From Lineus longissimus (lineage: Eukaryota; Nemertea; Pilidiophora; Heteronemertea; Lineidae): a stretch of DNA of 64,000 bases. The notes beneath the pieces are model-generated. The model was not told the origin of the DNA. It made no database searches and saw only the letters and a program-made list of their open reading frames with translations. A program made the position numbers and the translations under genes. The stretch is taken from assembly GCF_910592395.1 (NCBI RefSeq), contig NC_088309.1:12838599-12902598 (forward strand), written 5' to 3'. Positions within the stretch are counted from its first letter, which is position 1; each line of letters opens with the position of its first letter. This document shows, in pieces, positions 5,007 to 42,250 of this stretch.

Positions 5007-8000
5007 GTATTTTAAGTGACAAAAATCGAGATTGAGAGAGAATGACCTAAAATGAACACAGATCGCTATAGAGTATTACCTTCAATAGCAAATGTTACAA
5101 TTTGATGTCGCTATAATAATGCCGTCAATACATACAATTTGGTATAATTGTGATTTTGAACAATTTATCCCATCATTTTGAAATTTCACCTGATGGTACT
5201 TGCATTAAAAGAGGTTTACATCGAAGACTAAAATATGCCGATTGCGCTGGCTGAGTGGTTAAGGTGTCCTCCTCCTGAGGTGGTTGTACATTTGAGCCCC
5301 ATTGGTAGCTCTTGCCAATATGGCATGTTGGTTACCAACCAGCTAATGTAGGGTACAAATTGCTTTTTCACCAGGTGGCTGGCATTTCACTCCTTTAGTG
5401 CCAACATGGTAGATCTACAATGTATTTTAGTTAGTGCGACATTGCCAACATCGTAGACCTACAACCTACTTTATATTAAAAAAATTTATGCTGATCTCAG
5501 ATGGCAGGGCGTTTGTATAATGGTTCTAAGATATCGTCTGCTCAGTTCACTCTGCACGTGTTTCAGTCATTCTGTGCCATGCAGAGAAGGGGGTCATTCT
5601 ACCATTGGAATGACATCATTGATATTGAAACACGCGGCTGTACTGCATAATGTGGGAAAAAATCCTTGCACAGGAGAGTGTTTTCGTCTCTTCTACTCCA
5701 TAACAAATACTAATGCATCTTGGATGAAATATTAATTAGGAGACTTCAGATAAGAATATAAGTTTTTATGAGTATAGCTTATTTATTAGCTCACCTCTTA
5801 GCAGAGGTGAGCTTATCCCATACCGTGGCGTCCGTTGTCCGTCGTCGTCGTCGTCGTCCGTCGTCGTCCGTCGTCCGTTAGCAGGGCACGTTTCGTAACT
5901 GTTAGAGCTATTGATTTGAAACTTGGTACACATGTACCCTTATGTAATGACACCTTGGAGACCAAGTTTCGGTCCGATTCGTTTCATGGTTTGGCCACCA
6001 GGGGGCCAAACGTTAAAAGTGAAAATATGCAATATCTCCCTTAATAGTAGTCGGGAAATTTTGAAAAAAATATGGTAGGTACTTCTAGCAAAGGTGCATC
6101 ATATATCCTCCGGGTTTTTGATTTGACCTCCTTTTCAAGGTCACAGAGGTCAAATGGTGTAAATTGGCCATTAGGATGTAACGATGGCACGTTTCTAAAC
6201 TGCAATGACTATTGATACCAAATTTGGTACACATTTACCCCTTAGTCAGGTGATCTCAGGGACCGAAGTTTGGTCCAATATGATTCACCACTTGACCACC
6301 AGGTGGCAAAATCCAAAAACCTTAAAAATGTGATTATTCCTTAACTTCTTGCCCGATTGCCACCAATTTGATATCATGGGTACATCTAACCACCATACAG
6401 TATATGTCACACAGGTTTTTAATTTGACTTTCTTGTCAAGGTCACAGAGGTCAAATGGCGTAAATTCGCCGTCAGGCCGTAACTATGGCACGTTTCTTTA
6501 CTGCAATGACTATTGATCACAAATTAAGTACACATGTACCCCTTGGTCAGGTGATCTCAGGTACCGAAGTTTGGTGCGATCTGATTTGCCGTTTGGCCTC
6601 CAGGGAGGGGGCCAAATCCTAAATTCTTCAAAATGCCATTATTTCTAGTAATGACTTGCCCGATTGGCACCAATTTTATATCATAGGTACATCTAATTCT
6701 AACAACCATTCAATGTGTCACCCGGGTCTTCTTTGATTTGACCTGCTTTTCAAGGTCACATAGGTCGAATGTACTGTAAATGGGCCATTTTGGGGAAATT
6801 GTAATTGCTTGGACCTACATCAAACCTAACACTACATGACACAATACCATGCTCTTTATCCATCTTTCCTCCACATGAGGTGAGCACAATGGCCCTGGCC
6901 ATTTCATTTAATTTTCTACAGTTTTTTTTAAAAACTTTTAAAAGCTGGCCAAATTTGGGTTAAAATATGAAATAACCTCGGGCAGTGAAAGAGTTAAAAA
7001 CAACTTTACAGGTAAAGAGTGTCTCACAAGCCAAATCTAGCTGGCATTTTCATCAGTGGTGACACTTCAATAAACAACTGAACAGGTTAAAATACACGAT
7101 GGCTGCCTGACATCCGTCATATATATTTTGTGGACATCACTCTTTCAAGAATCCCAGTGGCAGATGTCCGTCAATACAGCCCAACTCGGCAATAATGAAT
7201 TCCTGGCAATAACGAACACTACCATAATATGGACCCCACTTTTGGCTCACCGTAAGGGGAGTCTATACGATGGCGCTGTGTCCGTCGGCGGCGGCGGTGT
7301 CGTCGTCGTCCGTCAGAACCTGTTTCAGAAACCGTGGCACGTTTCTTAACCGCTAGGGCTATGAACTTGAAACTTTGTACACAGCACCCCCTAGGTCAGG
7401 TGACCTCTGACACTGAATTTCGGTCCGATCTGATTCTCAACTTGGCCACCAGGGGGCCAAATGTCGATATCTAAAAAGTGTGATATCTCGCTTATTCGTG
7501 ACTTGTTTTCGATGAAACTTTTGTTGTAGGTACTCATAGCAAATATACATCTTATATCATACTGGTTTTTAATTTGACCTACTTTTCAAGGTCACAGGGG
7601 TCATATGGCGTAAATTGGCTGTTAGAGTGTAAACTATGGCACGTTTCTTAACCACTAAAGCTATGAACTTGAAACTTGGTACATATAACCCCCTATATCA
7701 CATAGCCTCTGGTGCTGAATTTCAGTTTGATCTGATTCTCAACTTTGCCACCAGGGGGCCAAAAGTGGAAATCTAAAAAGTGTGATATCTCGCTTATGAG
7801 TGACTTGTTTTCGATAAAATTTTTATGGTAGGTACTCTTAGGAAGAATGCATCACATATCTTACGGGTTTTCAATTTGACGTACTTTTCAAGGTCACAGA
7901 GGTCAAATGGCGTAAATTGGCCGTTAGAGTGTAACTATGGCACGTTTCTTAACTGCTGAAGCTATGAACTTGAAACTTGGTACACATGACCCCCTAGGTC

Positions 8001-11000: not shown

Positions 11001-14000
11001 TCATTGATCGATATGATCAAGATTACCATAGAGTGTATAACATTTTGACCATGAACTAGTTTCCAAGGTCAGAAAGGTCAAACTCGAAAATTCCACTGAA
11101 GTTGATACGTTTCACTACTATTTGTCTGAGATGCTTCAAATTTTATATGGAGACACCTATTGGGCATCTGTACAAGTTGACCCTAAGGGGCCAATTAAGG
11201 TCAATTGTGACCTAGTTTATTAAGTTCACAGATGTCAAACTCTAATAGTGTCATTGGCAGTGCCACATTTTGTCATATCTCAAAGTCAATTTAACCTCAA
11301 TATGTCATTTCATCTACAACAAATTGATTCCCAGGTGAGCACAATGTCCCCAGGACATTTCATTATAATCTTTTGGATTTGGGGAGCTGAGATTGGGAAA
11401 AAGAAGTTAACGAGTGGATTTAAGATCTTAGGCTTTTAACACCAACTGATCGAATCAGCATCAATGAGCATATAAAAAGTCTAAACTATAGCCAGGAAAC
11501 ATAATGGCAGTTTTTAATTTCGGTGTTTTGGTTTCATTTCATTTCCTAATCTCCACTCTGGTCTCACATGTGCTCCCAAAGTGAATTGCCAATCGAAATG
11601 GCGTACAACAATGGTCTCGAGTAACTAAATAATACAGCATGAAACTGAGGTCGAACAGTAAAGTCTGATGAGAATAGATCGTCTGAAAATGGTGTAAATG
11701 TGACTTTGTAGGGCCATGAATATAAGTGAGGTATCATGATATTTACATCACGTGACCTAAAATGGTGGGTCGTGCCGCAGCGATAGCGCGGGAACATCAT
11801 GAATATGATGGGATAAAAGCATGATATTAACCTCATTTTTAGCTCACCTCTTAGCAGAGGTGAGCTTATCCCATACCGTGGCGTCCGTCGTCCGTCGTCG
11901 TCGTCGTCGTCGTCGTCGTCCGTCGTCGTCCGTCGTCCGTTAGCAGGGCACGTTTCGTAACTGTTAGAGCTATTGAGTTGAAACTTGGTACACATGTACC
12001 CTTATGTAATGACACCTTGGAGACCAAGTTTCGGTCCGATTCGTTTCATGGTTTGGCCACCAGGGGGCCAAACGTTAAAAGTGAAAATATGCAATATCTC
12101 CCTTGATAGTAGTCGGGAAATTTTGAAAAAAATATGGTAGGTACTTCTAGCAAAGGTGCATCATATATCCTCCGGGTTTTTGATTTGACCTCCTTTTCAA
12201 GGTCACAGAGGTCAAATGGTGTAAATTGGCCGTTAGGATGTAACGATGGCACGTTTCTAAACTGCAATGACTATTGATACCAAATTTTGTACACATTTAC
12301 CCCTTAGTCAGGTGATCTCAGGGACCGAAGTTTGGTCCAATATGATTCACCACTTGACCACCAGGGGGCAAAATCCAAAAACCTTAAAAATGTGATTATT
12401 CCTTAACTTCTTGCCCGATTGCCACCAATTTGATATCATGGGTACACCTAACCACCATACAGTATATGTCACACAGGTTTTTAATTTGACCTTCTTGTCA
12501 AGGTCACAGAGGTCAAATGGCATAAATTCGCCGTCAGGCCGTAACTATGGCACGTTTCTTAACTGCAATGACTATTGATCACAAATTAAGTACACATGTA
12601 CCCCTTGGTCAGGTGATCTCAGGTACCGAAGTTTGGTGCGATCTGATTTGCCGTTTGGCCTCCAGGGAGGGGACCAAATCCTAAATTCTTCAAAATGCCA
12701 TTATTCCTAGTAATGACTTGCCCGATTGGCACCAATTTTATATCATAGGTACATCTAATTCTAACAACCATTCAATGTGTCACCAGGGTCTTCTTTGATT
12801 TGACCTACTTTTCAAGGTCACAGAGGTCGAATGTACTGTAAATTGGCCATTTTGGGGAAATTGTAATTGCTTGGACCTACATCAAACCTAACACTACATG
12901 ACACAATACCATGCTCTTTATCCATCTTTCCTCCACATGAGGTGAGCACAATGGCCCTGGACATTTCATATCTCTTTTAGTGCCAAAGATCGCACATGTA
13001 CAACCTAAATTTTTAAGGTATTTTAGTTACTCCAGACGACACCAGATATCCCCAGCTACACAAAGGTGTTTTATATAGTTTCTCTGGCCTGCGGCAAGAC
13101 CACCATTGATTTTTTAAGCCTTTTAGCAGTTCAATTGTCAATGTTTGACCGCGACGCATCAAATACTGCGTGGTAATGTGAATCTGAAATTTTGATATGA
13201 TATTCTGGACAGTCGGGCAAGTAAATGGTGAAAAGTAAACTGGTAGTTGACCTCGGAAATTTTTTGATAATCGACAAATTGGACAGACATTGATATGTCA
13301 AATGCCAAATGCCAAATTAGCAAAATTCAAAATTAATTTTTTTCATCAAATAATTTCTTTATATTTGTAGACTTGCGGCAGCAAATATTTTTTCAATACC
13401 TCTCCAAATATGTACTTGGTAGTTCAAAAAATACTCGCGTCTAATTGATAGGTCTCGACCCTCCAACCTATGAATATTCATTGGTGGTATTGTCTCGCCT
13501 GGGGCATCCAAATTGAATAATTTTTTCGACTGAGAGGGTGGGATGAGGTCTGCCACCCCTCATTTCAGGTGAAAAATGGTATAAATCGGCCAAAAATACC
13601 ACTTAGAAAAAATCCTAATATGCCCCAACATATTGCTGTTTTATTGAAACTGGGGGGTGAAGACAAAGGCTTTGAAGAGTTTTGATGAGTGTATCTCAAT
13701 TATTTTTGTAAGATTTTGGGTGGTGAAAATGACCAAATCCTGGCCACTGAAAGTGTTAACTAGTTTTGATTTATTTGTGCAGGATATAAGGCTCCAGAAT
13801 ATACCGAGGAACAGCTGCAGCGGCGGCAACAACGTGCAAAGAAACGTCGAGACCAAGCACACGAGAAGAGAGAAAAAGACAAGGTAGATTGACCAGTGGA
13901 ATCACAATTTTGGTGCTTGGGATTGTTGTATATCATATATTTTTAGATGGCAAAAATGGTGACTTGCCCTTAAAAAAGGAGAGCTATTGTGTAAGCTGAT

Positions 14001-17000
14001 TGTGCTCAAAATTACCTTCAAAACCCATCATTCTGTTCAATTCTATTTTGAAATATGTTGAGATGAGAAAAGGGAAGAAATTTTCATGTAGTGTATTAAA
14101 CCTCTAAACAGCTTAGGATCCGCTCAGCATTTATACAGGAATTTCCAAAATAGAACCTTTCAAAGAACAAAGGAACAGTTCACCAAACATGCCTAAGGGA
14201 CATTGCCCTGGTTTGTTGTGCGTGGGAACAGTTAAAGGGAGGGTTGCTTGGAAACTCTTATCAAAAAGGGGAATTTGTTATTAGCCCCATAAAAACATAA
14301 GGCGGGAATAAGCTTTCATTGATAAATCTAAGGAGTTCCGTGGACCCCAAATCACTTGTAAGGTTCAAGGAATACAGCCCTTCATTGGTGCATGTTTACG
14401 TATCATTCACATGCTCTCATCTTAATAAAGATGACAATATTTTTACGATCATGCGGTAGATTTTTTACCTTCATTTCACAACATTCATCGGTAATGTGCA
14501 CCTTGCAGATTTCTAAGCTACTACTTGTATCTGTCAGAAAAGTGCCTCGTCAGTAATTTCGCCAGCGGACTTTCGAACAAGGTTCACGGTTTTGGATCAT
14601 TGGAGGCAGAGGAGGAAGGAATATGGTTTTATGTTTAATGAAAACTTTGCTACATGTAGTTTCCAAGAGACCCCCCTTAAAGTTCTCACAAGAATTAGAA
14701 ACTGCTCGGCTTGGTTTTACCGCGCGGAAATTAAAACAAATAAAGCTTACTTTGATTTTCAGGGGCAAAGCTGGCTAAAAAAAGTTATCCAGCCAGTTAA
14801 GGTCTCATTAGGGAGTGTTTTTTTTATTCATGCGCGGCCAACCCCTAACCGTAGTTCCTAAAATCATTGATTTCTTGGTCCTTACAGTATGTCAGCGTTG
14901 ATTCAGCAGTTGTTTTGGCAAAGACATGTTTTTTTTGGAGTTTCTGAAACCTAGAGCGCTACTCAATAGGCGACTAACAAGAAACTACGCATTTATACTG
15001 TTGTTGCCGACGTATGTGTACACTGAACTTGGGATGTGCGTCGCCCCCGTGTTGAAATGCCGTCCAGTGCCAGTTGGTGCGTTTTTCGCTGATTTGTGCA
15101 AAATTCAACATATCTCAAAAGTTCAATGGTTGACCCTCGATTTTTTTTTTTTTTTGTGTAGCGTAAGCAACTGTCTTTCATGTGAGAATGGTCTCTGTAA
15201 GAAGTATTCAGGAACAAATGTATAATATTTGGGGTTTTTCGTGATTGTCCGGCCCAATCGGCAATATTGCCATTTGGGATGGTGAACGGAGCTAGGAGCA
15301 AATGCGACGCTTATGATTTATTTAAAGAAATAAAATGCCCGATTTAACATCCTGCAGAATCAGGGGAATCGGGCGTTTCCAGTGATATACTACACAAATG
15401 GGTTGTCCTCATGCATTCACTTTGGAAACGCATTTTAAAATAGATGTTACGTCCTGTTAATGGGGCACGTCATCATCGCGTACATTTCGGAAAAACTCCC
15501 TAACGAGACCTAAGGCCTCCAATGATAAGACAATGTAACCCTTACAAATTCCAATTTCCTCCCAGGCCCCTAGTGCTGATACACTATCCATATCATTATC
15601 CATCTGCGCTAGAACTCTCAATGCACTGTTTGTGTGCACGAAATAGCCCAACATTGGACCCTTTTTAGCTCAGCTGACAAAGTCAGCGAAGCTGGTAATA
15701 TTACTAAGGGAATGGTGTCCGTCCTTCCTGCCATCCTTCCATGTCAATTTTGGGCATTTTGTAACCGTAAGACCTAGGCACTTTGTTGACGCTGCTAAAT
15801 TAGGAGTAGCCCAAGGGGAACTCAGAAACCAAAAATCAGCGCGATCCGACCTACATTCGGCGAATGAGGTCATCGGGAAGTTTAAACTTCTTTCCTTTAT
15901 ACCTCTGGCCACAGAGGAAATATTGTTTTCAAATCTGGCCGAATATTTTTTAATAATTTTTCATTTTGACTTGTAATGGAATTAGTTTAGTTTTCACCGC
16001 CAGTTGGCGCTACAGGCACATTTGACAGATTTTTTGACGATTCAAAAGCCCGGGTTATGACGTATAGTTGCGCAGTTGTATTCTGCGCATTGAATTGGCC
16101 AGGGAACCAGGCTATATTTCAGCATAGCCACTGTGACCAGTGTAAAGATGGAAGATTGATTTTGCAACAAGTAACCAATTTTCTGCTAAAAAGTAGTCAA
16201 GTAGGCGATATTATCACTAGTTCCTTTCAGTGGGTAGTCATAAGGTCTTAAGGGAATACTTTCAGAAATTAGTTCTTGAAAATTTGGCCACAATTCTGTG
16301 AAAACGATATCGGAAGTGCACGCTCTGTTCGCGATGTATTTTGAAGTGGAGAATTCCCACAGTATGTGCAGTGAATCGGCATGATTCTGTTTGCATATTA
16401 GTTTTTAGTACTACGATTCTTACATGAGTAAAAAGTAGACGTTTTAAGCAACACAATAATGTTACTCCCATAAAAATTGATTGCAAATTGACGGAGCTAC
16501 GGCATTCTGTTCGGCAATTGTCAGCGCTGATAAAATACATTGCATGCTAATGCATGCCAAATGGCACACTTTAAAAAGCGTTCATTGGACAACGTAGGGA
16601 ATCACCAGAAATGACGTCATCGCTGGTCTAAATCTTCTATATAATAATATTAGAAGGGGGACGAATAAAGTCACACTTAGAGGCGTTGGATCGCCTTGAA
16701 ATTTTGCATGAATGGTGGTGACACCTTACCCTGATGCAACGTCTTGGTTTTATTCAAAAATTTACTTCAGCGGAGCAGAAATGAGGGATTTTTAATCGGA
16801 CACTGTCAATTCTCCTTACCACTCACAGAAGCCAAGCCATTACTGTTAAGTTATGCAGGGGCTTAATCAATTACCTGCACTCCCTGTGGGGTGAATAACA
16901 TTACCTTTTGAACAGCTGGCTGTAGGGGGATGATTGGAACAGCCGGTATACCTGCTGACCTGCTGAACCCAGATAAATGTTATTTTCAATCCATGATTGC

Positions 17001-20000
17001 AGGTCACCTGATTTTCGAGATTTCGCGGGAAATTGTAAACAAACGCATGTGTGCAGTTCAAATGTAAACAAAAATGTATTTTTGGTACTTTTGGTTGCTG
17101 GACTTGGGTTTTCCTGCAGTTAGGAGCTGGGGTCAAATTGGTGGTCTATTGTTTATGGATGCTGTTTTAGTCAGAGGTAGCCCTTGATTATGAAGGGATT
17201 TTCAAATATGAAAACGACCCTTTGTATTGTAAATTCCAATCACCTGCAGGACAGGTCAATTTCTCTCAATAAAATTAATTTTGTTGACTCCTGTAATCTC
17301 TACCTTATCAAAAAAAAGACAGTGGTGTTAGTCCCAAACTGGTCATTTCTATTTATTTTGACCTCTGTTAAATCAGGATACCTCTCAATTACAGACAGCA
17401 TTTTGTATCCTTGTGCTGTACAACCAAGCCTGGACATACCACAGTTGTCCATGGAGAAGTCTCATCCTCTCTGACACTTCTTTTCTGTAAAGCTACCGAT
17501 ACAACATACTGAACTAGGGATATCTTCCGTTGCCTCCTGTAATATTTGCATACCATGGCTGATTAGTTCAATCATATTTCATCCAGCTGGCAGCTCTGCA
17601 TTGGAAATCTTAGTAGTATAACGTGTTCTCTTGACCTTCAAACAGTAGTATAAAGCTGATATTTACTACTTTACACCCTCAGTCCTATGTTATTAGGTCA
17701 TCCAGCTGAGCGCCAGGCCCTTGGGCCTCTTGTTATTATTCTAGGCCAGTGATGTAACCAAGCAGGGAGTCTGTGTATAAAACCTCTCTGCGTAAACAAG
17801 GTTGATGCCCATGCAGGGCTGATTCGCGATGAGGTCAAGTGAGAAGACACTTCGTAGTAAAATTATGCTAATTTTCTACCTACTTTAGTATTCGTTACGT
17901 CACATTCCATTGGCGGAATTTGTTAACATATTTGGCTACAGGGGCGCAGAATACAGAGTTGTACAAAGCGAGATGCCCTTTAAACTTATGATCTTGAAGC
18001 TTACAGGCATGATACCTCGGTCTGAGTATGATATGGGTATATGGGAGCAGACAACACTGTGAACAGTTCCTATAAATGTAGATATTGAATAAGACCTCTA
18101 GACGCGTTTCACCTCATTTGTTTTGCTTCAAGTAAAGTGGATACCATCAATGCAATAAAAGTACACAATACATGCACATGCATTCATCCTGTGTTATTAG
18201 GGCTTGTATAAATGTATTGTGAGGCAAGACCACCATTGATTTTTAGCTCTGCTGACAAAGTCAGCGAAGCTATCAATATTACTAAGGGAATGGTGTCCGT
18301 CCTTCCTTCCGTCCGTGTCACTTTTGGGCATTTTGTAACGGTAACACCTAGGCATTTTGTTGACGCTGCTAAATTAGGAGTAGCCCAAGGGGAACTCAGA
18401 AACCAAAAATCAGCGCGATCCGACCTACATTCGGCAAATGAGGTCATCGGGAAGTTTAAACTTCTTTCCTTTATACCTCGGTCCACAGAGGAAATATTGT
18501 TTTCAAATCTGGCCGAATATTTTTTAATAATTTTTCATTTTGACTTGTAATGGAATTAGTTTAGTTTTCACCGCCAGTTGGCGCTACAGGCACATTTGAC
18601 TGATTTTTTGACGATTCAAAAGCCCGGGTTATGACGTATAGTTGCACAGTTGTATTATGCGCATTGAATTGGCCAAGGAACCAGACTAGTTTCAGCATAG
18701 GCTACCCACTGTGTGACCAGTCTAAAGATGGAAGATTGATTTTGCAACAAGTAACCAATTTTCTGCTAAAAAGTAGTCAAGTAGGCGATATTATCACTAG
18801 TTCCTTTCAGTGGGTAGTCATAAGGTCTTAAGGGAATACTTTCAGAAATTAATTCTTGAAAATTTGGCCACAATTCTGTGAAAACGATATCGGAAGTGCA
18901 CGCTCTGTTCGCGATGTATTTTGAAGTGGAGAATTCCCACAGTATGTGCAGTGAATCGGCATGATTCCGTTTGCATATTAGTTTTTAGCTCACCTCTTAG
19001 CAGATGTGAGCTTATCCCATACCGTGGCGTCCGTCGTCCGTCGTCGTCGTCGTCGTCATCGTCGTCGTCCGTCGTCCGTTAGCAGGGCACGTTTCGTAAC
19101 TGTTAGAGCAATTGAGTTGAAACTTGGTACACATGTACCATTATGTAATGACACCTGGGAGACCAAGTTTCGGTCCGATTCGTTTCATGGTTTGGCCACC
19201 AGGGGGCCAAACGTTAAAAGTGAAAATATGCAATATCTCCCTTAATAGTAGTCGGGAAATTTTGAAAAAAATATGGTAGGTACTTCTAGCAAAGGTGCAT
19301 CATATATCCTCCGGGTTTTTGATTTGACCTCCTTTTCAAGGTCACAGAGGTCAAATGGTGTAAATTAGCCGTTAGGATGTAACGATGGCACGTTTCTAAA
19401 CTGCAATGACTATTGATACCAAATTTGGTACACATTTACCCCTTAGTCAGGTGATCTCAGGGACCAAAGTTTGGTCCAATATGATTCACCACTTGACCAC
19501 CAGGGGGCAAAATCCAAAAACCTTAAAAATGTGATTATTCCTTAACTTCTTGCCCGATTGCCACCAATTTGATATCATGGGTACATCTAACCACCATACA
19601 GTATATGTCACACAGGTTTTTAATTTGACCTTCTTTTCAAGGTCACAGAGGTCAAATGGCGTAAATTCGCCGTCAGGCCGTAACTATTGCACGTTTCTTA
19701 ACTGCAATGACTATTGATCACAAATTAAGTACACATGTACCCCTTGGTCAGGTGATCTCAGGTACCGAAGTTTGGTGCGATCTGATTTGCCGTTTGGCCT
19801 CCAGGGAGGGGGCAAAATCCTAAATTCTTCAAAATACCATTATTCCTAGTAATGACTTGCCCGATTGGCACCAATTTTATATCATAGGTACATCTAATTC
19901 TAACAACCATTCAATGTGTCACCCGGGTCTTCTTTGATTTGACCTACTTTTCAAGGTCACAGAGGTCGAATGTACTGTAAATTGGCCACTTTGGGGAAAT

Positions 20001-23000
20001 TGTAATTGCTTGGACCTACATCAAACCTAACACTACATGACACAAGACCATGCTCTTTGTCCATTTCTTCCTAATGAGGTGAGCACAATGGCCCTGGCCA
20101 TTTCATTAGTACTACGATTCTTACATGAGTAAAAAGTAGACATTCCAAGCAACACAATAATGTTACTCCCATAAAAATTGATTCAAAATTGACGGAGCTA
20201 TGGCATTTTGTTCAGCAATTGGCAGCGCTGATAAAATACATTGCATGCTAATGCATGCCAAATGGCACACTTTAAAAAGCGCTCATTGGACAACGTAGGG
20301 AATCACCAGAAATGACGTCATCGCTGGTCTAAATCTTCTATTGGAAGGGGGACGAATAAAGTCACACTTAAAGGTGTTGGATCGCCATTGAAATTTTGCA
20401 TGAATGGTGGTGATACCTTACCCTGATGCAACGTCTTGGTTTTGTTAAAGGGCATGTTCACTTTCGTTTTGTGACCAAGTTTTGTGATCCTTGGGAAAAC
20501 GGAAAAAGCGAGGAATTTGAAAATTGCAGGGATGATACAATGATTAAAATGATTAATATTGGGTGAAATGACAATTCGTTTACTTGTCATTAACTAAGAC
20601 AAAAGAACAATTGAACTGATTAGGCCTTGTGAAAATGCCATGATTTTCTAAATATTACTTCAGAAATGGGTTGTGCCGGTCATGAGAGCTCCAAATAATC
20701 CAATAATTTGATTCATAATTATCAGAAACACCCCAAAAAATGACTTTGAAATTCATCGTTTAAGGGAGAGTTGACCTCAGATGAACTATTAATTCCTCAA
20801 GCCATTTTAAAAATAGCCATTCATTACTTCGAGTTGGGTATTACATGAATCTGTTTGTAACACAGCAGATTGAACCATTCAACTGTGGGGGTGTGCACTG
20901 CGTGCTGGACAACAATGGCCACAGTGAACAATGAAGGCCTAGGGTTCATAGGCCTATAGAATGGCAGATGTGCTGAGCTGCCATCATTTTCCTATTGAAG
21001 GACACAAAAAGCCAATTGTTTGAGTTACCTGGGCCTACTGCTGATGAACTTTCTAATAGTTTTCTTTACTTTTAGCTCCTAAAAATGTCGTAATAAATGT
21101 ATTGAATCTCAATATGGCCCTACTCTTTCATAAAAATGACTTGTTCTTCATCAAGAGGGCATAATGAGAATGAATGATGTCTATAAAAGTGATCAAATCC
21201 AAATGGACATCAGAAAGAAAAGAAATGATAATAAAATGAACCATTTCATCGCATTTGCTACAGATAAGAGTTGGGTTTTCCCCTGGATATCACCAGTCTT
21301 CCTGTTGCCTTTTTTTTCTTCAGGGTGTTTCTAACAAATGAAACCAATGGCAAATATGAAAGCGGATACCAGTACCATTTCATTTGTGAGAAAAGTATAG
21401 TTTGGTGTTCATAAGCCTACTGTCAACACATCTATACTAGGCATGCTTGAAATCCCTCAATTGTGAAGCACCCACCACAATGAACTGCATGCAGTGAAAA
21501 CTACCCAGTGGACTTAGGGGACAGACACACCAATAAGAGGACTTTGTATGGCAATGAATGCTTTAGATGATAAGGGAAAGAGCAAGCATTTGGCCTTCTG
21601 GTTTGATGTTCCCCCCCCCCCCCCCCCCGATCAGTGTGATATAGCTTATTATTGTAGTTTGTTTTTTCTTCTATGAACAGAACTTGTGTTGAACCGTGCA
21701 AGGCATACATTTTTAGTTCAACAACAAATGGATTTGATTACATGAGGTTGCCAAAATCATCATCAGCGCCACCATAGGAGTAAAGAGAAACAATCGGACA
21801 GAATTTGCAAACCAGGAAAACATCCCAAGTGCGCATGTGCGATCAATCATTTTTGCCTGGGGCGAGGTGGCAGATTATGACCAGTTGTTTATCTTTTCTC
21901 CAATGGTGGCACTGATGTCAAGTGTGGCAAATGAAATGATGATTACCTCTGAGACATACACTGGAAGTGTTATTTGTGACAAATAACCCCATATCTAATT
22001 TAACACATTATTCTTTCAAAATTAAACCCAAACTATTTTAGCAATTGTCATCTGAACATTGTTATTCTTCTAATTGCCCGAGGAATTTATTGTCTGGCCA
22101 TGCTATTGATATACTACTGTGAAGCCTGCAACGCATCTGAAATTGAAAAACGACACTGGTTATTAGAGAATAAAACTTATGGTATAGGTTGTCCTACCTA
22201 TCTGCAATCAACTGCCCATAAATGGAATCATCAGTCACATCCCCATCAGTTTATCCACAGTCAGAATCACCAGTAATCCAAAGGAACAAAAGATAATCCA
22301 GGACTTGAATCCAGCAAAGTACGTTATGAACACAGTCTAGGCCAAACGTCAAATCACCTCAGTATCCAATGGAACAACAAATAATCCAGGACTTGAATCC
22401 AGCTAAAGTATGCTATGAACACAGTCTAGGCCAAAAATTGAACGTCAGAATCATATGAATCATATGAATCTAGTCAAACTGCTTTTATGAACATAGTCTA
22501 GGCCAAAAAGAAAACATTCAGGGTAAAGTTGTTCCCTTGTTGGTCCCAAGGTGATGCAGCCACTGGTTGCCTATCATCATCCATCCTCCACCAGATGTTG
22601 TTGGGGTCTCTTAGATAGGCGAACCAGTGGCCCACATTGCACTGGTCCCCAGAATGGCACATGATGCCTTGAATTATCTTGCCATCTAGGGTACCTCCCT
22701 CTGGAGGTCTAATCTTGGTCATGCACTTTTGATTGCCTGATCGTCTGTTGACCTCGATTATAGTTATAGGTCCATCTACAGTGATCTGAAACCCCTGCGA
22801 GTGGCGTTCACAGACTCTCCCATTTCGTCCTTGGAATTGACAGTGACCCTGGAGAATACCTGAATTTGCAAAGTGATCATGGTAAAGATCGATAAGTGAC
22901 ACTGCTTGGGGGCCACGTGGAACGTTAATCCTTAACACGGTGCCATCCCTCACCAACTGTAAGTCAATGTGCCCCAGGGGGCAGTGGAATTGCCCTGGCC

Positions 23001-26000
23001 ACGAAGTGAGAACTCCTTCAGGTATACTGAGTTTTTCCAACAAGCTCATTAGAAATTCTCCTGCATCCTGGTATACTCCTAGCACATACCCTCTCCCATC
23101 AATTGTGGTATTCAGAGTGGTAATGAGTTCCTGGACAGAGAAAGGTGCACCCTGTCCAGCCATCCTGGCACAAATATCAAGAAAGGTGTTGTCCACAAGA
23201 TTTGGTTGATCACCTTGTATGTGCTGGCCAAGATTCACATGATTTAAACACTGGAGCACAGCATTGCTGTAGCAAATGTTTGCGTCATTGATCAGTCGTG
23301 ATCCTGGATATTGGGGCGGCATGGGCTCATCATTCCTGTCCACATCAGCAATGTTGGTCACTTCAGAGTCATGGGTGTCAGGGATCTCAGATTGTTGGGG
23401 ACTTGTGCTCTGTTGTGGTGGGCGTTGTCTTTGTGTCCTACGGAAAACTGGTGTGCGACCCCTTGGCGCAGTGTAGCGAGGCTGAAGGGGTTCTGGCAGC
23501 TTTGGGTCGGCTAGATGACATTTTCTTACTACAGGATCCCGAAACCTCTCCTCAGCACACAGTATCATCAGAAGTGCGGCTACATGGGCATCTGACGTGA
23601 GCATACGGGAGCCAAGGTCCCTCTTGGCAGCTGTCCCACAAGTCCAACCACAAAGTCTCTGTAGCGGCCCAGTAAATCCTAGATAGTTCTCCAACTCGCT
23701 GTTCCTCGGTGAACCACTCTGTGTGAACACTACTAGAGGCCGTTTCATGTTCCCCGGGTTTCTGTTCGTCCTGTTTGCCGATGGCATTTTCATCGTTATG
23801 ATGGTCACTCCTGTCTCGGGCCACTGGAAGTAAGTTTCATTGTTCCAGCCATCCGGAATCTCATCGACATTTGTGAAGTAAACACGGGTGGTAACTGGAA
23901 GTTCACGTGCCATGTCCCAGTATTCAGCAATACTTTCGAATTGGCCCATTTGAGCACCGATTTCGAGTTGCTTACAATGGGTAATGTAAGAACAACCCCT
24001 ACGAACCAAGTACGGTCCAAGAGTGAATTCGTATATCTGCTGTGCACTAAGAGCCGGCAAGTCAAGGCGGTCTCTGAGTTGACCAATGTCTCCGACTTCA
24101 ACACTGTTCCACTGAATACTCCTGGCAGAAGGGAACTGCAGCACATGAGGAGGAAGAGTGACTGAGGGGTCATGCAGGAAGTTACTGATGTTGAGTCGGT
24201 GCTTAATCAGCTTCGCCAGGCGAACCTGCTCCTGATCATCCATGAACTTTATGTTGAATTTTGCATGGAACTGATTGAAATGTGACACTGCAGCTAGCCA
24301 TATAAGGTAGATACGAGGACAATTCACATAATCATTAGGTATACCATATTTGTTGCAAAATTGTTCTCCAAGTGGTTGGAGGAACTGATAAGGTATTATG
24401 TCCAGGATTTTTTCATCAGCAATAGCTCCATGAAATTGTTCTACTCCGAATCTGAGCTTTCCAACTATGATTTTGCTGTTTTTTGTGAGAACAGGGTCGC
24501 TGGGAGATGCCGTCATCTCAATTTTACCACTTGTTGGATCAACTTGGAGAATATCCTCATCCCCCTCACTAGGCCATATTAGCCTGCAACCATTCTCAGA
24601 ACACCACTGCTTCAGATTTGTCACATTTTGTTGGCTTACATTATGTGGCACATAGATGTACCCCTTGTCCACAGCGAGTATCACGAAGTAGTCCGAGGTT
24701 CCTTGAAGGAGAGACAGAAGTCCCTGAGGTGCGACCTCACTGTCAGCCTGACTTTCGCATAATTGCAACTCAACACCACACAGATTGCTATCACCACACC
24801 TTGGGGTGGCTGCTGCAGCCACAGGAAGTGTCAAAACCACATGTCCTGTAGTATCCACCAAAGTAGAAAAGGTTATGAAATGCCCTCCCTTTTTGGAATA
24901 ATAACAATCCTTCTGTTGCTCATAATCCATTGAGTTCTGCACCTTCACTTTTTTAGAATCCATGCTTGCAGCAACAGGCATCCTTGAAGAACCATCTTTT
25001 GGATCAGAAAAGTAGGACAGCAACTCACTATGGATGGGGGATTCTCGACCTTTCATATTGGAGTAAACATCATTTTTCTCAGAGTCACTTAGGTTACCAA
25101 ACCACTGCAATGGAAGGCTTGAGCTATTGAGAATGTCAGCACACAACTCAGTCCAGAAAATGTCATTGGCAGTTGGCAGACCTATATCAAAGTACGCAGC
25201 CAAATCACGAAACTCTACGTTACTCCGCATTTTGTGCCGATACAACAATACTCTAGCAGAAGGATCCAAACTACGGCAGGTTGACTTCTGGGTCCTCCCC
25301 TGCTGATGCTCCCACACAAGCAGCCAGAACTGTTCCTTTTTCATGCCTGTGAGATTCTCTAGCTTCCAATCTGGCATCATCCATGGCTTTCGCATGTGAT
25401 TCCAGTCCCGTCGTCGGTTCTCAGGCCATTCATGTCTTGGAAACTCAGCATCATAGCAACTGTCTGATACCCCATAAACATATGTTCCATCAGTGTTGTT
25501 TTCACTGCGGCTGGAGGTTTGGCCAGGCCTATCGTTGGGACTGGCAGTTTCAGAGTCTACGTCGTTGTTAGCAGCAGTCTCCGGTTCATCATCAGAAGAG
25601 GCGGTGTCCATTGGTTCATCATGGCTGGCGGTGTCCATTGGTTCATCATGGCTGGCGGTGCCGATTGGTTCATCATGGGTGGCAGTATCAGCGTCATCAT
25701 GTTGACCATCAATTGTCCCATTGCCTTGGACGTCTGGATTACCTTGGTGATATTGAGCCTGTAATAGAACAAGGAATTGTTGCAGTTACTAGTGAGTTAT
25801 ACATGACACTTTGCACTTTGCAGGTGGGCTGCTGTAGGCACATGCCTTCCCTATTTAATACCTTTTTTCTCCAGAATCAAATGATTTTAGTTTTAATCAG
25901 CTGAAGGCTTTGACAAAGTAGTGGTTCATGAACTTACAGCAGTCATCCAATGCATGGCAGTACCAGTCCCAAGTGTGCAATTTCAGAAACTAGTGGACCA

Positions 26001-29000
26001 ATTCAGAAAGTGCTGATACTTGGTATCAAATGAAAATGTACCATGAATACATTTTAGTTGAAATGTTACAATTGCTAGGTAAAATCATTTTATATCTTTA
26101 AAACACTGAAACCTGGCAGAGAAAGAACTGACCACCGGTGTAAACCTTGAGGGTAAAATGATGTTTACATCGTATTTCTAATCTTTTGCTCTAAAAATCA
26201 GGAATCTTCGTTTTAGATACCGTATACGCAAATATTTTTGTGAGGAAAGATTTCGCGATTTGGCCCTGCACTGACTATTTCGCGAGGAATAATGTTCGCG
26301 ATGGGATCCCAAAAATCTTTGTAGAAAATTCCGATATTCTCCTGATCGATGGAATTGGTGCTAATCACTCTGAAAAAATCACAGAAATTCGTCACTGTGT
26401 GGTTGTTTTCCTAGAATTTTCCTTGTTTTGATTTATGTTCGCGGGGAATAATCTTCGCAATACCGAATTAAATTATTGTGTATACAGTAAGTAGGCATTT
26501 CGTGTGTTACTCAATTTCAAGAGTGCAATAAATCATTGCAATCGACTGATATTTTCTGAAATCGCCCTTGGGACATGGACTGACCTTACCCCTGCAGCCC
26601 CTTATGGAATCTTTGATCTTAAAAAAAGTAAAAACTACCAACCTACGCTATATTTTTTAGTTTTGTTATCAGAAACACAACCTAACAAAAAAGCAGTACA
26701 CCCGGTAATGGTATTTCTAAGAATCTATGAACGTTTTTGGTAGTTTTCACTTTTTATAAACAATCACTATTCCAAGTTGTAAAGCCCATTTACAATGTAC
26801 ACAGCATCCTCATCAGAGGAAGCCCTATGCACATTTCATGTACATTTTTTTTGGTTTTCACCCTGGCCCATATTGCTGGATTGGCAGCCCTTTCTAAACT
26901 AGTGGAGATACTGTAAACCCCCTTATTTTCGCTAGTGACTTGATGACCGTATTTCACCCTTTAATCAAATGTCTCCTATGGCAATCTAAAAATGCATGAT
27001 AAGAGTAATACAATTTCGTGCCTTTTACTTGTATTTTTGCGTTTAACGAGAAAAACATTTAAGAGGTTTACAGTACTCCAGAGGATTTTCAAACATGGTG
27101 GCTTTCCCGAATTTGACAATGGCCACCTGTTGGCCTGGGTCGTATGTACACACCCTCTTCAATGAATAGACCTCTTGCCTTAGTCTGACTCAGGGGCCGA
27201 TTGGCCGGGGGTAAATTCTAATGGCTTCATGAATTGTGAATCCCTGTATCTCAAAATCAACTTGGCCGATTTTCGCCAAACATTTTACTGAAAGTCTAGA
27301 TCAGCAACATACCATTTTTTTACAAATCTCTGTAGAATGTTTATCATGTCTACAAGCAGAAAAAGTTTGGTGAAAATCGGTCCAGTAGATTTTAAGATAT
27401 AGGGATTCACAATGTATAAACGACATTAGAATTAGCCCCCCCCCCCCCTCCATCAGCCCCTTTATCGGACAAAGGCAAGAGGTCTATACAAAACCCTCAC
27501 CAACAGGATGGCAAAGCTGCTCAAATCGGGAAATCGACGATGTTCGAAATGCATTGGTTCACATAGTTCGGAGGATAATACTTACAAACAAATCTCTATT
27601 TATGCAGTAATGCCGAAGATGTCTTTGTAGATTCGAAATTCGCTGTCCACTCTCATGTATCAATGCCCCACAACCTTCACATACATGGAGCACCATGTCT
27701 AAAGCTGGCAGTCTTCATTCAATGCACAAACGTCTAATGTGTTCTGATGGTAGAAAGCATGCTGGAATCTTGACAAAAGGAACTATTAGGAATGATGATG
27801 TAACATCTTATGGTTTCCTTGACCCTATTCAAACACTAGACATTAGACAATATTTTCATGGACAGGGTCCCTGCAGAAACTCATCTGTTGAATAGATTGT
27901 TCTCATTCATGCACAGCTCTATTGTCTGAATGACAGAATACAAAGCAGGTGCTGTCTTTGAATAGCTCAGCACCTATTATTGATAAAATCCTCCCTTCCA
28001 AAAGACCCTATGATCCGGAAAAGTGTTACATTCTCCAGAGAGTAGGCCTAAAGGCACATTACGCAACCACAAGTAATCTCAATCAACAATGCATACCCAA
28101 TTTATAAAGGGTAACAACACCTTTCACCCCCAGAGAGGAAATGGGGCAGTCTGACTCGAACTTCACTAAGATGGTCATGTAATCACCTTATAGGCCTAGT
28201 AATGACATAACATTCAGGGTGATCATAACGACCCTATTTCTTAACGTCTTAAAACGAAAGTGAACAGGCCCTTTACTTCAGCGGAGCAGTAATGAGGGAT
28301 TTTTAATCAGACACTGTCAATTCTCCTTACCACTCACAGAAGCCAAGCCATTGCTGTTATGCAGGGGCATAATCAATTACCTGCACTCCCTGTGGGGTGA
28401 ATAACATTACCTTTTGAACAGCTGGCTGTAGGGGGATGATTGGAACGGGTGTCTATAAACCGAAGATCGAAGATGTATAAAACGAAGATCCCACCAACTA
28501 TAAAGCGAAGACCCTACTATAAAACGAAGACCCCACCAACTATAAAGCGAAGACCCTACTATAAAATGAAGACCCCCACCTACTATAAAGCGAAGACCCT
28601 ACTATAAAACGAAGACCCCACCAACTATAAAGCGAAGACCCTACTATAAAACGAAGACCCCACCAACTATAAAGCGAAGACCCTACTATAAAATGAAGAC
28701 CCCCACCAACTATAAAGCGAAGACCCTACTATAAAATGAAGACCCCACCAACTATAAAGCGAAGACCCTACTATAAAACGAAGACCCGACCTACTATAAA
28801 GCGAAGACCCTACTTTAAAACGAAGACCCCACCTATTATAAAGCGAAGACCCTACTATAAAACGAAGATCCCACGAACTATAAAGCGAAGACCCTACTAT
28901 ATAAAACGCTTTTTGTAGTTAATAAAAACGTGTTACGTGCGAAACGGGTTCATTGGCTGATCTGGCCGTCTCTTTCTGCACACAGGGTGTACGCTTCAGT

Positions 29001-29215
29001 CTAAGGTGCTCGCAAACAGGTCGAGCACGCCGCCATACAGTATAGAACCTATTTTAAGCGTACGGGGAGTGTGATACGGGGCGTAGCTTAATGGTTAAGG
29101 TATGATCTCAATGATCCTATTTATGCAAGCGGAGTGGGTTCGATCCACGGATAGGTTGCTTTTTAGCTCACCTCTTAGCAGAGGTGAGCTTATCCCATAC
29201 CGTGGCGTCCGTCGT

Positions 29216-29310
<95 letters not shown>

Positions 29311-32300
29311 CGTCCGTTAGCAGGGCACGTTTCGTAACTGTTAGAGCTATTGAGTTGAAACTTGGTACACATGTACCCTTATGTAATGACACCTGGGAGA
29401 CCAAGTTTCGGTCCGATTCGTTTCATGGTTTGGCCACTAGGGGGACAAACGTTAAAAGTGAAAATATGCAATATCTCCCTTAATAGTAGTCGGGAAATTT
29501 TGAAAAAAATATGGTAGGTACTTCTAGCAAAGGTGCATCATATATCCTCCGGGTTTTTGATTTGACCTCCTTTTCAAGGTCACAGAGGTCAAATGGTGTA
29601 AATTAGCCGTTAGGATGTAACGATGGCACGTTTCTAAACTGCAATGACTATTGATACCAAATTTGGTACACATTTACCCCTTAGTCAGGTGATCTCAGGG
29701 ACCAAAGTTTGGTCCAATATGATTCACCACTTGACCACCAGGGGGCAAAATCCAAAAACCTTAAAAATGTGATTATTCCTTAACTTCTTGCCCGATTGCC
29801 ACCAATTTGATATCATGGGTACATCTAACCACCATACAGTATATGTCACACAGGTTTTTAATTTGACCTTCTTGTCAAGGTCACAGAGGTCAAATGGCGT
29901 AAATTCGCCGTCAGGCCGTAACTATGGCACGTTTCTTAACTGCAATGACTATTGATCACAAATTAAGTACACATGTACCCCTTGGTCAGGTGATCTCAGG
30001 TACCGAAGTTTGGTGCGATCTGATTTGCTGTTTGGCCTCCAGGGAGGGGGCCAAATCCTAAATTCTTCAAAATGCCATTATTCCTAGTAATGACTTGCCC
30101 GATTGGCACCAATTTTATATCATAGGTACATCTAATTCTAACAACCATTCAATGTGTCACCCGGGTCTTCTTTGATTTGACCTACTTTTCAAGGTCACAG
30201 AGGTCGAATGTACTGTAAATTGGCCATTTTGGGGAAATTGTAATTGCTTGGACCTACATCAAACCTAACACTACATGACACAAGACCATGCTCTTTATCC
30301 ATCTTTCCTCCACATGAGGTGAGCACAATGGCCCTGGCCATTTCATTGTCTTTAAATTTATAAATTCGTTTTTATTTTTATTTTTTATATATATATAAAA
30401 ATTCTCTGTGTTTTTACCACAAAATTACGGTGAATCCCCACGGTGGGTTTGTCGGCCTTTTAGGTATTTTTCCGATCAACTGCTGTGACATTGTTTGTTA
30501 ACTCTCTTCTGATGGGTTGCTGCACTGTATCTTTGCTGGTATCGGTGGGGTTGGCGTAGCGTAGGGTAGGTTTGGGGAAAGGCTCAAGACAGCGCTTCCG
30601 TAATTCTGAAGTCCAGGACAAATAGGACAATCCAGGACAAATAGGACTGTGACCCAAAACGAATTGCTTTATAGTTGGCAGGGTCATATTGCCCTTTGCC
30701 TGTTGGGTAAACATCAATGAAGGACCTAATGAGAGTCGACTGGGGGGGGGGGGCTGCTCCAACGCACTGGATAAGCATCAAGGAAGGACTTGTTGAGAGT
30801 CCACGAGGGGGGCTCCCCCAACGCACTGGATAGCACATGTTCGAAGGACGGGAGAGTTGGGGGGCTCCTGGGGGGCTCCCCCCATTGCACATTGTGTGAT
30901 TTCTCTAAGACTGTGACCTTGCATATTAATAGGGTCTTCACATTATAGTTGGTGGGGTCTTCGTTTTATAGTAGGGTCTTCGCTTTATAGTTGGTGGGAT
31001 CTTCGTTTTATAGTATGGTCTTCGCTTTATAGTAGGTGGGGTCTTCATTTTATAGTAGGGTCTTCGCTTTATAGTTGGTGGGGTCTTCGTTTTATAGTAG
31101 GGTCTTGGCTTTATAGTAGGTGGGGTCTTCATTTTATAGTAGGATCTTGGCTTTATGGTAGGTGGGTCTTCGTTTTATAGTAGGGTCTTCGCTTTATAGT
31201 TGGTGGGGTCTTAGTTTTATCGTAGGGTCTTCGCTTTATAGTTGGTGGTATCTTCGTTTTATAGATCTTCCATCTTCGTTTTATACATCTTCGATCTTCG
31301 GTTTATAGACACCCGATTGGAACAGCCGGTATACCTGCTGACCTGCTGAACCCAGGTTAATGTTATTTTCAATCCACGATTGCAGGTCACCTGATTTTCG
31401 AGATTTCGCGGGAAATGAAATTGTAAACAAACGCATGTGTGCAGTTCAAATGTAAACAAAAATGTATTTTTGGTACTGTTGGTTGCTGGACTTGGGTTTT
31501 CCCGCAGTTTGGAGCTGGGGTCAAATTGGTGGTCTATTGTTTATGGGTGCTGTTTTAGTCAGAGCTAGCCCTTGATTATGAAGGGATTTTCAAATTAAGG
31601 TGACCATGGTCTTTTTATGTGCTCACCACAGCTTTCAATACTTGATGTATCTGAAGAGGCGCGTGGAATCTGACATGGCCTTATCAAGGAGCTGCTCACG
31701 GTGCTGAACTTCTAGCTTGCCTGTCGACTAAGTGCCTTTTTGGCCGAGACATTGCTAATGCTACATGTAGGAGGAGCACGCATTTTAAAGTTATAGTAGT
31801 GATAGTACAGTTGGTTCGAGCCATTTGGAAGCCGACATGTGAAGGCCTATCTGGATTCTCCTTCTTCTCCATATAAAAAGGGGCATATTGCTGTCAAGGA
31901 ACGAGGCATATTGACATTGCCTCATCATCTCTATTGGACCAATTGATATACTTTTATATGCACGCATACATCACGCCATTGCAGGGTCCGAGTCTGTGGA
32001 CAATTGGTTTGATTAATCTGTCTCTTTGATATTGCTCATTTATTGCATTAGATTTTCATCGCAATTCAATCTATTCAAGATACGGCTGCGCCACGGATAG
32101 ATTGGTTCCCGATCGACTCACTAGGGATACACAGTAGAGCACAATGCTAGTAAAAAATAGATTGGTTCCCGATCGACTCTCTAGGGATACGCAGTAGAGC
32201 ACAATGTCATGAAAAACGACCGTTTGTATTGTAAATTCCAATCACCTGCAGGACAGGTCAATTTCTCTCAATAAAATTAATTTTGTTGACTCCTGTAATC

Positions 32301-37557: not shown

Positions 37558-39359
37558 TATTGATCTGTACATTTTGTATTGAACCTGCTGTATGTGTTAT
37601 AAATAAATATCAGTTGATGTGATATACGTTTTGAAGTTTACTTTATATACCAGGTGATTACAGTAGTGAAAACTTACTGAAAGCTTTCATTTGTTGCCTG
37701 AAGGGATGCTACAGTGCTGGTGACAGTATTTATATGTTAACCTATATTGTGGTTTATATGTTAACCTATATTGTGGTTTAGGATGAAATTGCAGGCATGC
37801 TTTTGCTGCTTTGACTAACAAAGTATGTTCCCTGGTGAGGAATGAAAGTCCAGGCGACGTCTGTGCTGGAAAGATCCATGACACTCACTTATTTGATCTG
37901 GTTTGGGATGAAATTTCAGATAATGCTTGTGCTTGCTTGTATCCCCAAGTATGTTTTCTAATTAAAGATGAGATCCCAAGCAGTATCTGCTGCTGGCTTG
38001 GGCCCCCAAGTATGTTTCCTAGTTAGAGATGAAGTTCCAAGCTGCATGTGTGCTGACCTCTCCAGGTATGCTTTAGCTGTGATGGGTCACAAATGGGCAA
38101 CATGCCTGGACGGTCAAGCCAGCTAAGAAAATTTATGGAACTTCAGCACTATCCAGTTCACAAACTTGGAGATTCAAGGTGGCCAGGACGTTGTTTACAA
38201 CTCCAAAGTTTATGAAGTTTCATACATTTTCTTTGCAGCTTGACTCTCCAAGCATGTTGCCTATTTACTTAGAGTAACCAGACTAAAGTACAGACTAAAG
38301 TACGAGATTATTTGCTCATAATTTCCAATAGATCACACTACATAACCCTCTAGAAGCCCAGCTGAGTTCAAATCTACCGCCACTGATAAGCCCTGATAAA
38401 CTTCGTCTTGTGCTCGGCGGGAGGCTTTGTTTGTAATACAATCATGCATCCCCCCAGTAGTACTGGTTCTCCTTGGATGCCCTTGTAGTTACCAGTGTAC
38501 ATCTTTAGGCAGGAAACGCTGCCCAGCATAAACTTCTTGTATTCAGAAGGTAAGTGCAGACAGTTCATTCAATAAATTGTTATTCTGATTGACGGCCCTT
38601 TGATTGGTTGAAATCAGACCAGGAGGGAGTATTTCCTGACCTGATATGGCGCGCGGAAGCGATCATTATTATAATAAAGTGTTCAACAGTAACTGTTTTC
38701 GTGATTTCTGTTTAACACAAATAATTTCCCAACTGCCTGATACGGGAATGGATAAAACATGACTGAAAGGAAAGAGGATGTGTTCTGTTGTGTTCTGCAA
38801 GGCCAATAGGCTAAAAAAACAGTTGACGAGTTCAGATGCAAAAGCCACTAAATCCTCTTGAGGTCTTTTTGAGGAAATGCAACTTTTCTGCCATGACTAA
38901 TATAATGGTTTTGTAATAAAAGTGAATCTTTTTACATGATTTACAATGGGATCTTGCGGTTTTGCATTGAAACTTATTCCACCTTAACTCTACAGTTACT
39001 TTCTGGTGGAGGTGGATCAGGAGTCCCAACACAAGTTAATGTTTCTTGATATTAGTTGTGACAACAGACACCAACCCTCGCCAGTCGCGTGATGATGGAA
39101 TAAAACCTACCCATACTGAACACCTTAAGAAAAGTAAGGCCCCCCCCAGAAATTTATTAATAACAATAAAACAACTGATCATACAGGATCATATATGAAT
39201 GTTCAATGAATGAAGGCAATTTGAATGACAAAAAGTAAGATTTCACATGACTAACCGGCTTGTTTCTTTCATGGATTGTTCATAACACACCCTGGTATAT
39301 TTGTGGATAGAGACATTGAAGGACTGACTACAGTCACAACCGAATCCACTTGCACATGA
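37558..39359. other. Non-coding stretch with short tandem repeats
   Basis: TTTATATGTTAACCTATATTGTGG is duplicated in tandem near 37729-37778. A degenerate unit of about 90 bp with AAGTATGTTTCCTAGTTAGAGATGA-like text repeats at 37780-38040. A 64-codon open frame on the - strand at 38374-38568 (LPSEYKKFMLGS...) has no recognised domain. Confidence 0.4.
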
Positions 39360-41325: not shown

Positions 41326-42250
41326 GAGGAGTCCACCATCGAACTCCAGTAATAGGAGTACAAAAAGAAGAAAAGGAATAGCTTTTCACTTTAAATGTAT
41401 AAAAGTAGATTTTATTGAATAAAAGATATTTACACCGAAGTGAAGTTTTCATGTGTACTGCACTTAACAGACAATATTGGATATAAAATGGCATAATGAT
41501 TTATTCAAAATACCCAGTATTAAAATTTCAAGAAGTAGTAACAGTGAAATATGTAACTCTGCAGAAACAAAACACACTTGTACTGAATTCTCAAATTAGA
41601 AACATGTAGATTTCATGTTATCTATGATAATTTGCATCTTCACTTTAAAGCTTACCAAAATAATAAAATTACATGATCATTTGCCAAGATTCTTATAGAT
41701 TATTCCAAGGACGTAATGGAGGAACAACGTCAGGAATGACATTGCGTCGAACACAGAGGTGGGAAGCTAATTTCTTTTCATCAACCACCCAGGTCAAATC
41801 ACCGAGGCAACACAACATGGCGGTCCGCCTGGGAATCATCTGTTGAATATCTCAAGAAGAAATGGTCCAGGGACCATGTGCTCACCTCGGGTAATGCATG
41901 GATTTGGGAGAGCATTCTTGAAAATTTTGCGATCTTAGAGGAAGTGGAATGGTAATGGAGCTTTAATGGAGAATTTATATCAGCTTGGGCAGGGCTATTG
42001 ATTTTCAAGATGCTGGTGGCCATATTGGTTGATGGATTTGACTGAAAATTTGGGATATTGTCAAGAGCACATAGATACATAATCACCTGTTCCTTATGAG
42101 TGATAATTTCAGGGTTTGGGGGGTCTGAAATTAGGGGGGTGATTTTTGAAGGCTTTTAACCCGCGAATCAGCTTTTTGAACACAACGGGTTAATTTGAGG
42201 CCCAAAACCACATTAGTAAGCCAATTGGACTGAAACTTTATATTTTTTTT
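41326..42250. other. Unique non-coding stretch
   Basis: AT-rich sequence between the satellite and the F2-C element. No convincing ORF, RNA or repeat was seen. Confidence 0.4.

Follow-up and report, generated by a model that had tools for sequence, protein, structure and literature searches.

A Spy-like DNA transposon in the genome of Lineus longissimus with a ubiquitin-specific protease domain joined to its predicted DDE transposase

A window of 64,000 nucleotides from Lineus longissimus (contig NC_088309.1, positions 12,838,599 to 12,902,598), which is the whole stretch of DNA analysed here, contains a DNA transposon present in the genome as eight near-identical open copies. Its main open reading frame (ORF) encodes a predicted DDE transposase fused to a ubiquitin-specific protease (USP) domain of the peptidase C19 class. 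Judged from the sequence, the likely role of this domain is to clear ubiquitin from the transposase to which it is fused, which would thereby be spared proteasomal turnover, an explanation in which we place moderate confidence. Because its ends lie between AAA and TTT without a target duplication, the element is considered Spy-like, and it appears to belong to a lineage in which the USP fusion is old and under selection. The coordinates of all features are given in Table 1.

The ORF occupies positions 22498-25638 of the reverse strand, comprises 1046 codons uninterrupted by a stop and remains open upstream to 25785. An intact frame of this length had been claimed in a preliminary description of the window, and is real. 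The residues D227, D324, E400, C789 and H1004 and the DDD at 1020-1022 are likewise where that description put them, and are the same in P0002, a 45%-identical homologue from another source in which the same join is found. The exon that holds the frame encodes, in order, an acidic N-terminal region, a helix-turn-helix (HTH), the DDE core, a conserved post-DDE region, a linker and the USP domain, and ends in the stop codon.

The USP domain was also part of the preliminary description, and its profile match is significant. PF00443 (USP/UCH) matched the whole ORF with an E value of 3.1e-10 and the domain alone with 8.1e-12, at 45.7 bits against a cutoff of 23.9. The same profile was matched by six of eight aligned proteins, the window's included; the two without a match are presumably P0001 and a partial piece of L024, which lack the domain. 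We take C789, H1004 and D1020/D1021 to be the catalytic Cys, His and Asp of a USP, and N784 to stand in the place of the oxyanion Asn; D858 sits in the QDA box. A search of the USP region alone against protein sequences returned a single weak match (Anopheles USP31, E 5.7), a silence that means little since P0002 was missed by the same search. A profile search of the PDB with the eight proteins matched 67 sequences, the best being USP36 (E 1.5e-7). Among the 60 of these that were listed, all were named ubiquitin carboxyl-terminal hydrolases except BpJOS (E 0.014). The best matches are spread across ubiquitin hydrolases 36, 14, 12, 46 and 6 and thus indicate no host subfamily. With USP36 as the top match, and with other specificities described in abstracts for some USPs (SUMO for USPL1, Fubi for USP36), the domain might instead cleave another modifier (SUMO, NEDD8 or Fubi) or trim the transposase protein itself. 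However, no specific modifier is indicated by the sequence and the USP36 match is strongest over roughly 35 residues at the His box, so that we regard this as improbable.

Further copies were sought in the source genome, which comprises 391 Mb in 30 contigs. Scoring of 44 of 86 candidates gave 61 matches, which collapse into 38 loci as a lower bound; these fall into five or more families that are 49-65% identical in the DDE part. The 1046-codon frame is complete and open in eight copies, with 0-4 differences among their 3138 nucleotides. At 31 of the 38 loci both the DDE and the USP parts were found as protein matches, and at the other seven a tblastn search placed USP sequence downstream of the DDE part in every case (7/7), some of it decayed; L049 keeps a USP remnant of only 21 residues. 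The USP is therefore carried, or was formerly carried, at all 38 loci, and no DDE-only version was found among them. The several two-domain copies that the preliminary description looked to for support are thus present, and copies lacking the USP part, which it had named as contrary evidence, are absent from this set. Both parts lie in one open frame at 16 or more loci (the eight copies of the window family, L009, L010 and L015-L020). Among the families of the window, L009, L017, L014 and L024, identity falls from 49-65% over the DDE region to 35-54% over the USP and 12-27% over the linker; the corresponding values for P0002 against these five are 50-56%, 39-46% and 13-33%.

Transposons capture host genes, and a join of this kind might arise by chance if the element had taken up a host USP gene, or a piece of one, at a single locus, or might reflect an assembly artefact. 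A single-locus origin of either sort is refuted, since the same join recurs at 38 loci, is shared by five or more diverged families and is found in P0002, and we give it next to no credence. P0001 (822 residues, with 73% identity across 64% of the query) stops before the USP and was considered as a DDE-only relative, but rejected as such. Its terminal residues are compatible with D-S-G-A-R-M at the homologous position if an alternative frame is assumed, so that P0001 is probably a frameshifted copy; in the same scan, compatible runs of six or seven residues were also found at non-homologous places. Searching proteins with the alignment of the DDE part brought up P0001 and P0002 once more and nothing else, and scans of viral contigs and genome contigs yielded no relatives.

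The USP was checked at 27 loci outside the window family, of which 26 match the window's domain and L049 does not. The cysteine at position 789 is kept in 24 of these 26, being deleted in L024 and replaced by Ala in the decayed L052, and is retained in L025, a relative of L024. N784 is likewise kept in 24 of 26, D858 in all 25 loci covered, and H1004 and D1021 in all 24 covered. None of the seven changes among the eight window-family copies falls on N784, C789, D858, H1004 or D1021. Inactive transposon-derived deubiquitinase domains do exist, as in the insect iVTD (PMC9741609), and the domain could have been retained only as a non-catalytic module for ubiquitin binding or dimerisation. Conservation of the Cys, His, Asp and oxyanion Asn to the extent just given makes this highly improbable.

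Divergence between families was estimated by the Nei-Gojobori method for three pairs. The proportion of synonymous differences (pS) was 0.75-0.86, which is saturated, and that of nonsynonymous differences (pN) was 0.23-0.34 in the HTH-DDE region, 0.29-0.39 in the USP and 0.56-0.60 in the linker. In both domains pN is thus well below the saturated pS, in keeping with the low dN/dS that the preliminary description had named as support. The linker serves as an internal control and changes faster than both of its neighbours, indicating that the HTH-DDE and USP domains are both held by selection.

The DDE part is a predicted transposase. The preliminary description had put forward a DDE core with candidate residues, for which the profile searches gave matches below cutoff. 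DDE_Tnp_4 matched the window's protein with E 0.14, below the Pfam cutoff. Among the eight aligned proteins, DDE_Tnp_4 was found in five and HTH_Tnp_4 in four at E <= 1, with best E values of 0.01 and 0.00059, respectively. HTH_Tnp_4 precedes DDE_Tnp_4 as expected, and both were below their curated cutoffs wherever bit scores were shown. The two profiles therefore recur across relatives, but at sub-threshold scores. The residues D227, D324 and E400 are identical in all eight sequences. A profile search of the PDB with the DDE part alone gave zero matches, a search of NCBIfam gave none, and a fold search with the predicted DDE core gave no match at E <= 0.001, the mean predicted local distance difference test score (pLDDT) of that model being 36.8.

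The ends of the element were defined by its terminal repeats and by a paralogous empty site. The preliminary description had set the gene between matching terminal repeats of AAGGGC type. The repeats are present (20446-20475 and 28246-28275 with their flanks, 27/30 pairs), but the AA of AAGGGC is part of the target flank and not of the repeat. A 20-nucleotide pattern drawn from the repeats, with up to three mismatches allowed, matched only twice within the window against 0.01 matches expected by chance, and the 26 nucleotides of the left repeat are unchanged across the eight open copies. When joined, the flanks of the element align to 16405-16940 at 92% over 537 nucleotides across the junction. 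Integration at AAA|TTT without duplication fits this empty site with a gap of 3 nucleotides, and a TA or TTA duplication with one of 9 nucleotides. A TA or TTA duplication had at first seemed likely from the single copy; it is ruled out by the gap at the empty site together with the flanks of the other copies.

All eight open copies have the same two ends, and their flanks beyond AAA and TTT are unrelated. Seven of these eight two-ended copies are flanked by AAA and TTT, and the eighth by CTT and TTT, with only TT in common. Two broken copies of the window family, with one recognisable end each, likewise have AAA or TTT. At the other loci AAA adjoins GGG[GC]NTGTTC at 17 of 20 recognised ends. 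In total, 34 of 38 element ends, drawn from several families, have AAA directly beside the repeat, the four exceptions being CTT, TAT, TAA and GAA (the last at L012, which is doubtful and was scored as a miss). At the AAA/TTT rate of the window this has a probability of about 2e-44 if the ends are independent. The AAA and TTT flanks are the target and not part of the repeat, and the element reads GGGC...GCCC. Neither the TWA duplication of PIF/Harbinger nor the AT duplication of ISL2EU was seen at the ends examined.

Table 1. Coordinates of the transposon, its predicted gene and the associated sites within the window.
Feature	Position	Strand	Details
Whole transposon	20450..28271	.	7,822 bp; terminal repeats and empty-site paralogue; identical ends in 7 further copies
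Left terminal inverted repeat	20450..20475	+	GGGCATGTTCACTTTCGTTTTGTGAC; 23/26 pairs with right repeat
Right terminal inverted repeat	28246..28271	-	Pairs with left repeat
AAA half of target site, left flank	20447..20449	+	AAA at the left end in 7/8 open copies
TTT half of target site, right flank	28272..28274	+	TTT at the right end in 8/8 open copies
Paralogous empty site	16405..16940	+	Flanking repeat without insertion; junction reads TTCAAAAATTTAC
Predicted coding exon 1	27586..27696	-	37 aa, C2HC BED-like zinc finger, then GTAAGT donor
Predicted intron	25759..27585	-	GTAAGT ... CTATTACAG; sequence and colinear P0001 protein
Coding exon 2	22498..25758	-	Open frame; 8 open copies
HTH_Tnp_4-like stretch	25156..25272	-	Residues 123-161; E 0.0095, best relative 0.00059, below cutoff
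DDE core, D227 + D324 + E400	24424..24963	-	Residues 226-405; DDE_Tnp_4 below cutoff
Variable linker	23314..23490	-	Residues 717-775; 12-33% identity between families; pN 0.56-0.60
USP / peptidase C19 domain	22501..23313	-	Residues 776-1046; PF00443 above cutoff; N784, C789, D858, H1004, D1021

The gene is predicted to consist of two exons, a finger exon and the main exon, with a product of about 1,123 residues. The acceptor CTATTACAG sets the predicted start of exon 2 at 25758, a boundary that agrees with the preliminary description; the predicted finger exon upstream and the AAA|TTT target had both been missed there. Exon 1 would encode MVLHVCEGCGALIHESGQRISNLQRHLRHYCINRDLF, which matches the N-terminus of P0001 (tblastn, E 2e-11), and its finger scored E 0.02 against zf-BED, below the Pfam cutoff. 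Twenty other loci were searched for an upstream finger, which was present at four (L009, L010, L011 and L028). No finger match was found in the remaining 16, the L017 family included, and a motif scan of L017 revealed no convincing finger.

Two repeats were observed in or beside the gene. Within the predicted intron, 27163-27490 is a palindromic stretch whose 61-nucleotide arms are 84% complementary and which is about 72% self-complementary over 338 nucleotides, resembling a small inserted element. Just behind and across the stop codon, at 22316-22507, a 31-nucleotide repeat (...ATGAACACAGTCTAGGCCAAA) occurs three times.

The integration signature invites comparison with Spy, which is described as inserting exactly between AAA and TTT and leaving no target duplication (PMC11304231). 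In common with Spy, a member of the PHIS superfamily (PMC11304231, PMC4482050, PMC9179366), the element has AAA/TTT integration, no duplication and a single gene. DDE and HTH-type signals in one protein may be a further shared trait, the profile matches here lying below the Pfam cutoffs. However, the Spy transposase is given as about 700 residues and the descriptions available mention no peptidase, whereas the product here is predicted to be about 1,123 residues and to include the BED-like finger exon and the USP. The element is thus Spy-like by integration signature and single-gene layout and different by coding capacity, Spy being compared by its description only. PIF/Harbinger and ISL2EU, as described in PMC4482050, share the HTH and DDE arrangement and repeats starting GG or G/A, but have a TWA or AT duplication and a second gene (Myb/SANT or YqaJ). 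The present element shows no duplication of either kind, and its sequence contains no long frame that might be a second Myb/SANT or YqaJ gene; the longest open stretch outside the main exon is 94 residues, where a split gene is possible and no search for Myb/SANT was made.

The preliminary description knew of no transposon family with a USP fused to its transposase. None was found among the open-licence PMC papers listed, as screened by title and start of abstract, Repbase being outside that scope, but the claim goes slightly too far. A Trichomonas vaginalis protein, XP_001314237.1, in which transposase_11 and Peptidase C19 domains occur together, had already been noted by Bao et al. 2010 (PMC2836005), who cite Gladyshev and Arkhipova 2009. 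By this description it shares with the element a transposase domain and a C19 peptidase in one protein. It differs in that its transposase domain is transposase_11 (pfam01609), and the Discussion of PMC2836005 describes no element, ends, copies or selection for it. Ginger1 likewise combines a DDE transposase with a C-terminal cysteine protease of the ubiquitin or SUMO type, but its DDE is Gypsy-integrase-like and its protease domain is OTU or Ulp1 rather than USP (PMC2836005). Helitrons (Helentrons) bearing VTD or OTU domains provide a further parallel, since a transposon-borne deubiquitinase is proposed as protector and VTD domains are argued to protect the transposition proteins (PMC9741609). 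Unlike the present element, they encode a rolling-circle RepHel protein with no DDE, and their deubiquitinase is of another class (PMC9741609). In the literature covered, a USP joined to a transposase has one printed precedent, the Trichomonas protein, and OTU, Ulp1 and VTD domains are known in other transposons.

The surroundings of the element contain further repeats and mobile-element remains. A repeat of about 0.9 kb, made of units of about 300 nucleotides, is present in four copies (5859-6797, 11921-12859, 19060-19972 and 29298-30236), which are about 92-99% alike over 300-nucleotide stretches; the copy at 19060 adjoins the left-hand flanking repeat of the transposon. To the right, 28454-31285 is a fold-back with 42-nucleotide tandem repeats in inverted arms (203 nucleotides, 93% complementary), which enclose about 2 kb including one copy of the 0.9-kb repeat. 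A forward frame of 700 codons at 47097-49196 matches the hAT C-terminal dimerisation profile with a score right at the Pfam cutoff (E 2.3e-4) and is a hAT-like part of a transposase. On the reverse strand, a 349-codon frame at 56368-57414 matches RNase H (E 4e-14) and is probably the end of a retroelement, and a 297-codon frame at 2799-3689 matches Baculo_F (E 6e-7). An array with a periodicity of 86 to 91 nucleotides occupies 39281-41405.

How the parts of the protein might work together can be proposed from these features. The finger and HTH are predicted to bind the GGGC...TGTTC ends. DDE catalysis would then make blunt cuts and place the element into AAA|TTT, as in Spy (PMC11304231). The USP could trim, on its own polypeptide or on partner transposase subunits within the complex, the ubiquitin chains that target the transposase to the proteasome, and this trimming would give a longer lifetime and a higher level of transposase in a host that turns it over. 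We infer self-deubiquitination because the fusion fixes the USP to the transposase, because the catalytic residues are conserved and because of the parallel with VTD domains of Helitrons (PMC9741609). A fuller history is put forward more tentatively: a whole Spy-like lineage may have gained the USP long ago and retained it within the transposase, the enzyme may be self-deubiquitinating, perhaps also acting on chromatin ubiquitin at the target, and the lineage may still be jumping.

The main rival to self-deubiquitination is action on host chromatin or repair, in which the substrates of the USP would be ubiquitinated host proteins (histones, PCNA, repair factors) at donor or target sites, so that the transposase could open chromatin or steer how the cut ends are repaired. 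The fusion would place a deubiquitinase at the DNA, residue conservation suits any catalytic role, and transposon OTU and Ulp1 domains have been suggested to act on the repair system (PMC2836005). However, the spread of the PDB matches described above points to no host subfamily, and we consider this rival possible but on balance unlikely.

Several observations weigh against self-deubiquitination of a DDE transposase as read here. The conserved USP fits host targets equally well, and sequence cannot separate the two. At no point did the DDE part exceed the Pfam cutoff. Structure predictions for the whole protein and the DDE core reached a mean pLDDT of 31.1 and 36.8 and were left unused; both were built on three-sequence alignments that preceded the genome copies. 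The finger exon was found at only four of the 20 other loci, the seven near-identical copies lying outside that search. One window-family copy has W1017S in its USP, and six of the seven changes among the eight copies alter an amino acid, a number too small for a test of selection. Finally, L024 is placed differently by the two domain trees: it groups with L014 for the DDE (support 0.938) and with L017/L013 for the USP (0.953), while the pair of window and L009 is shared by both. This conflict could come from long branches or from an exchange of domains between families, so that a single acquisition of the USP is plausible but not proven.

Taken together, a recurrent, conserved USP on a DDE transposase with Spy-type integration represents a further class of transposon-borne peptidases beyond OTU, Ulp1 and VTD, which are found in widely differing transposons. 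With eight near-identical open copies, the element offers a clean test case for the long-standing question whether the removal of ubiquitin serves transposition, and it could also tell whether hosts limit transposases through ubiquitin-dependent turnover. If self-deubiquitination is true, host ubiquitination would be a layer of defence against DNA transposition, and the fusion a counter-measure to it.

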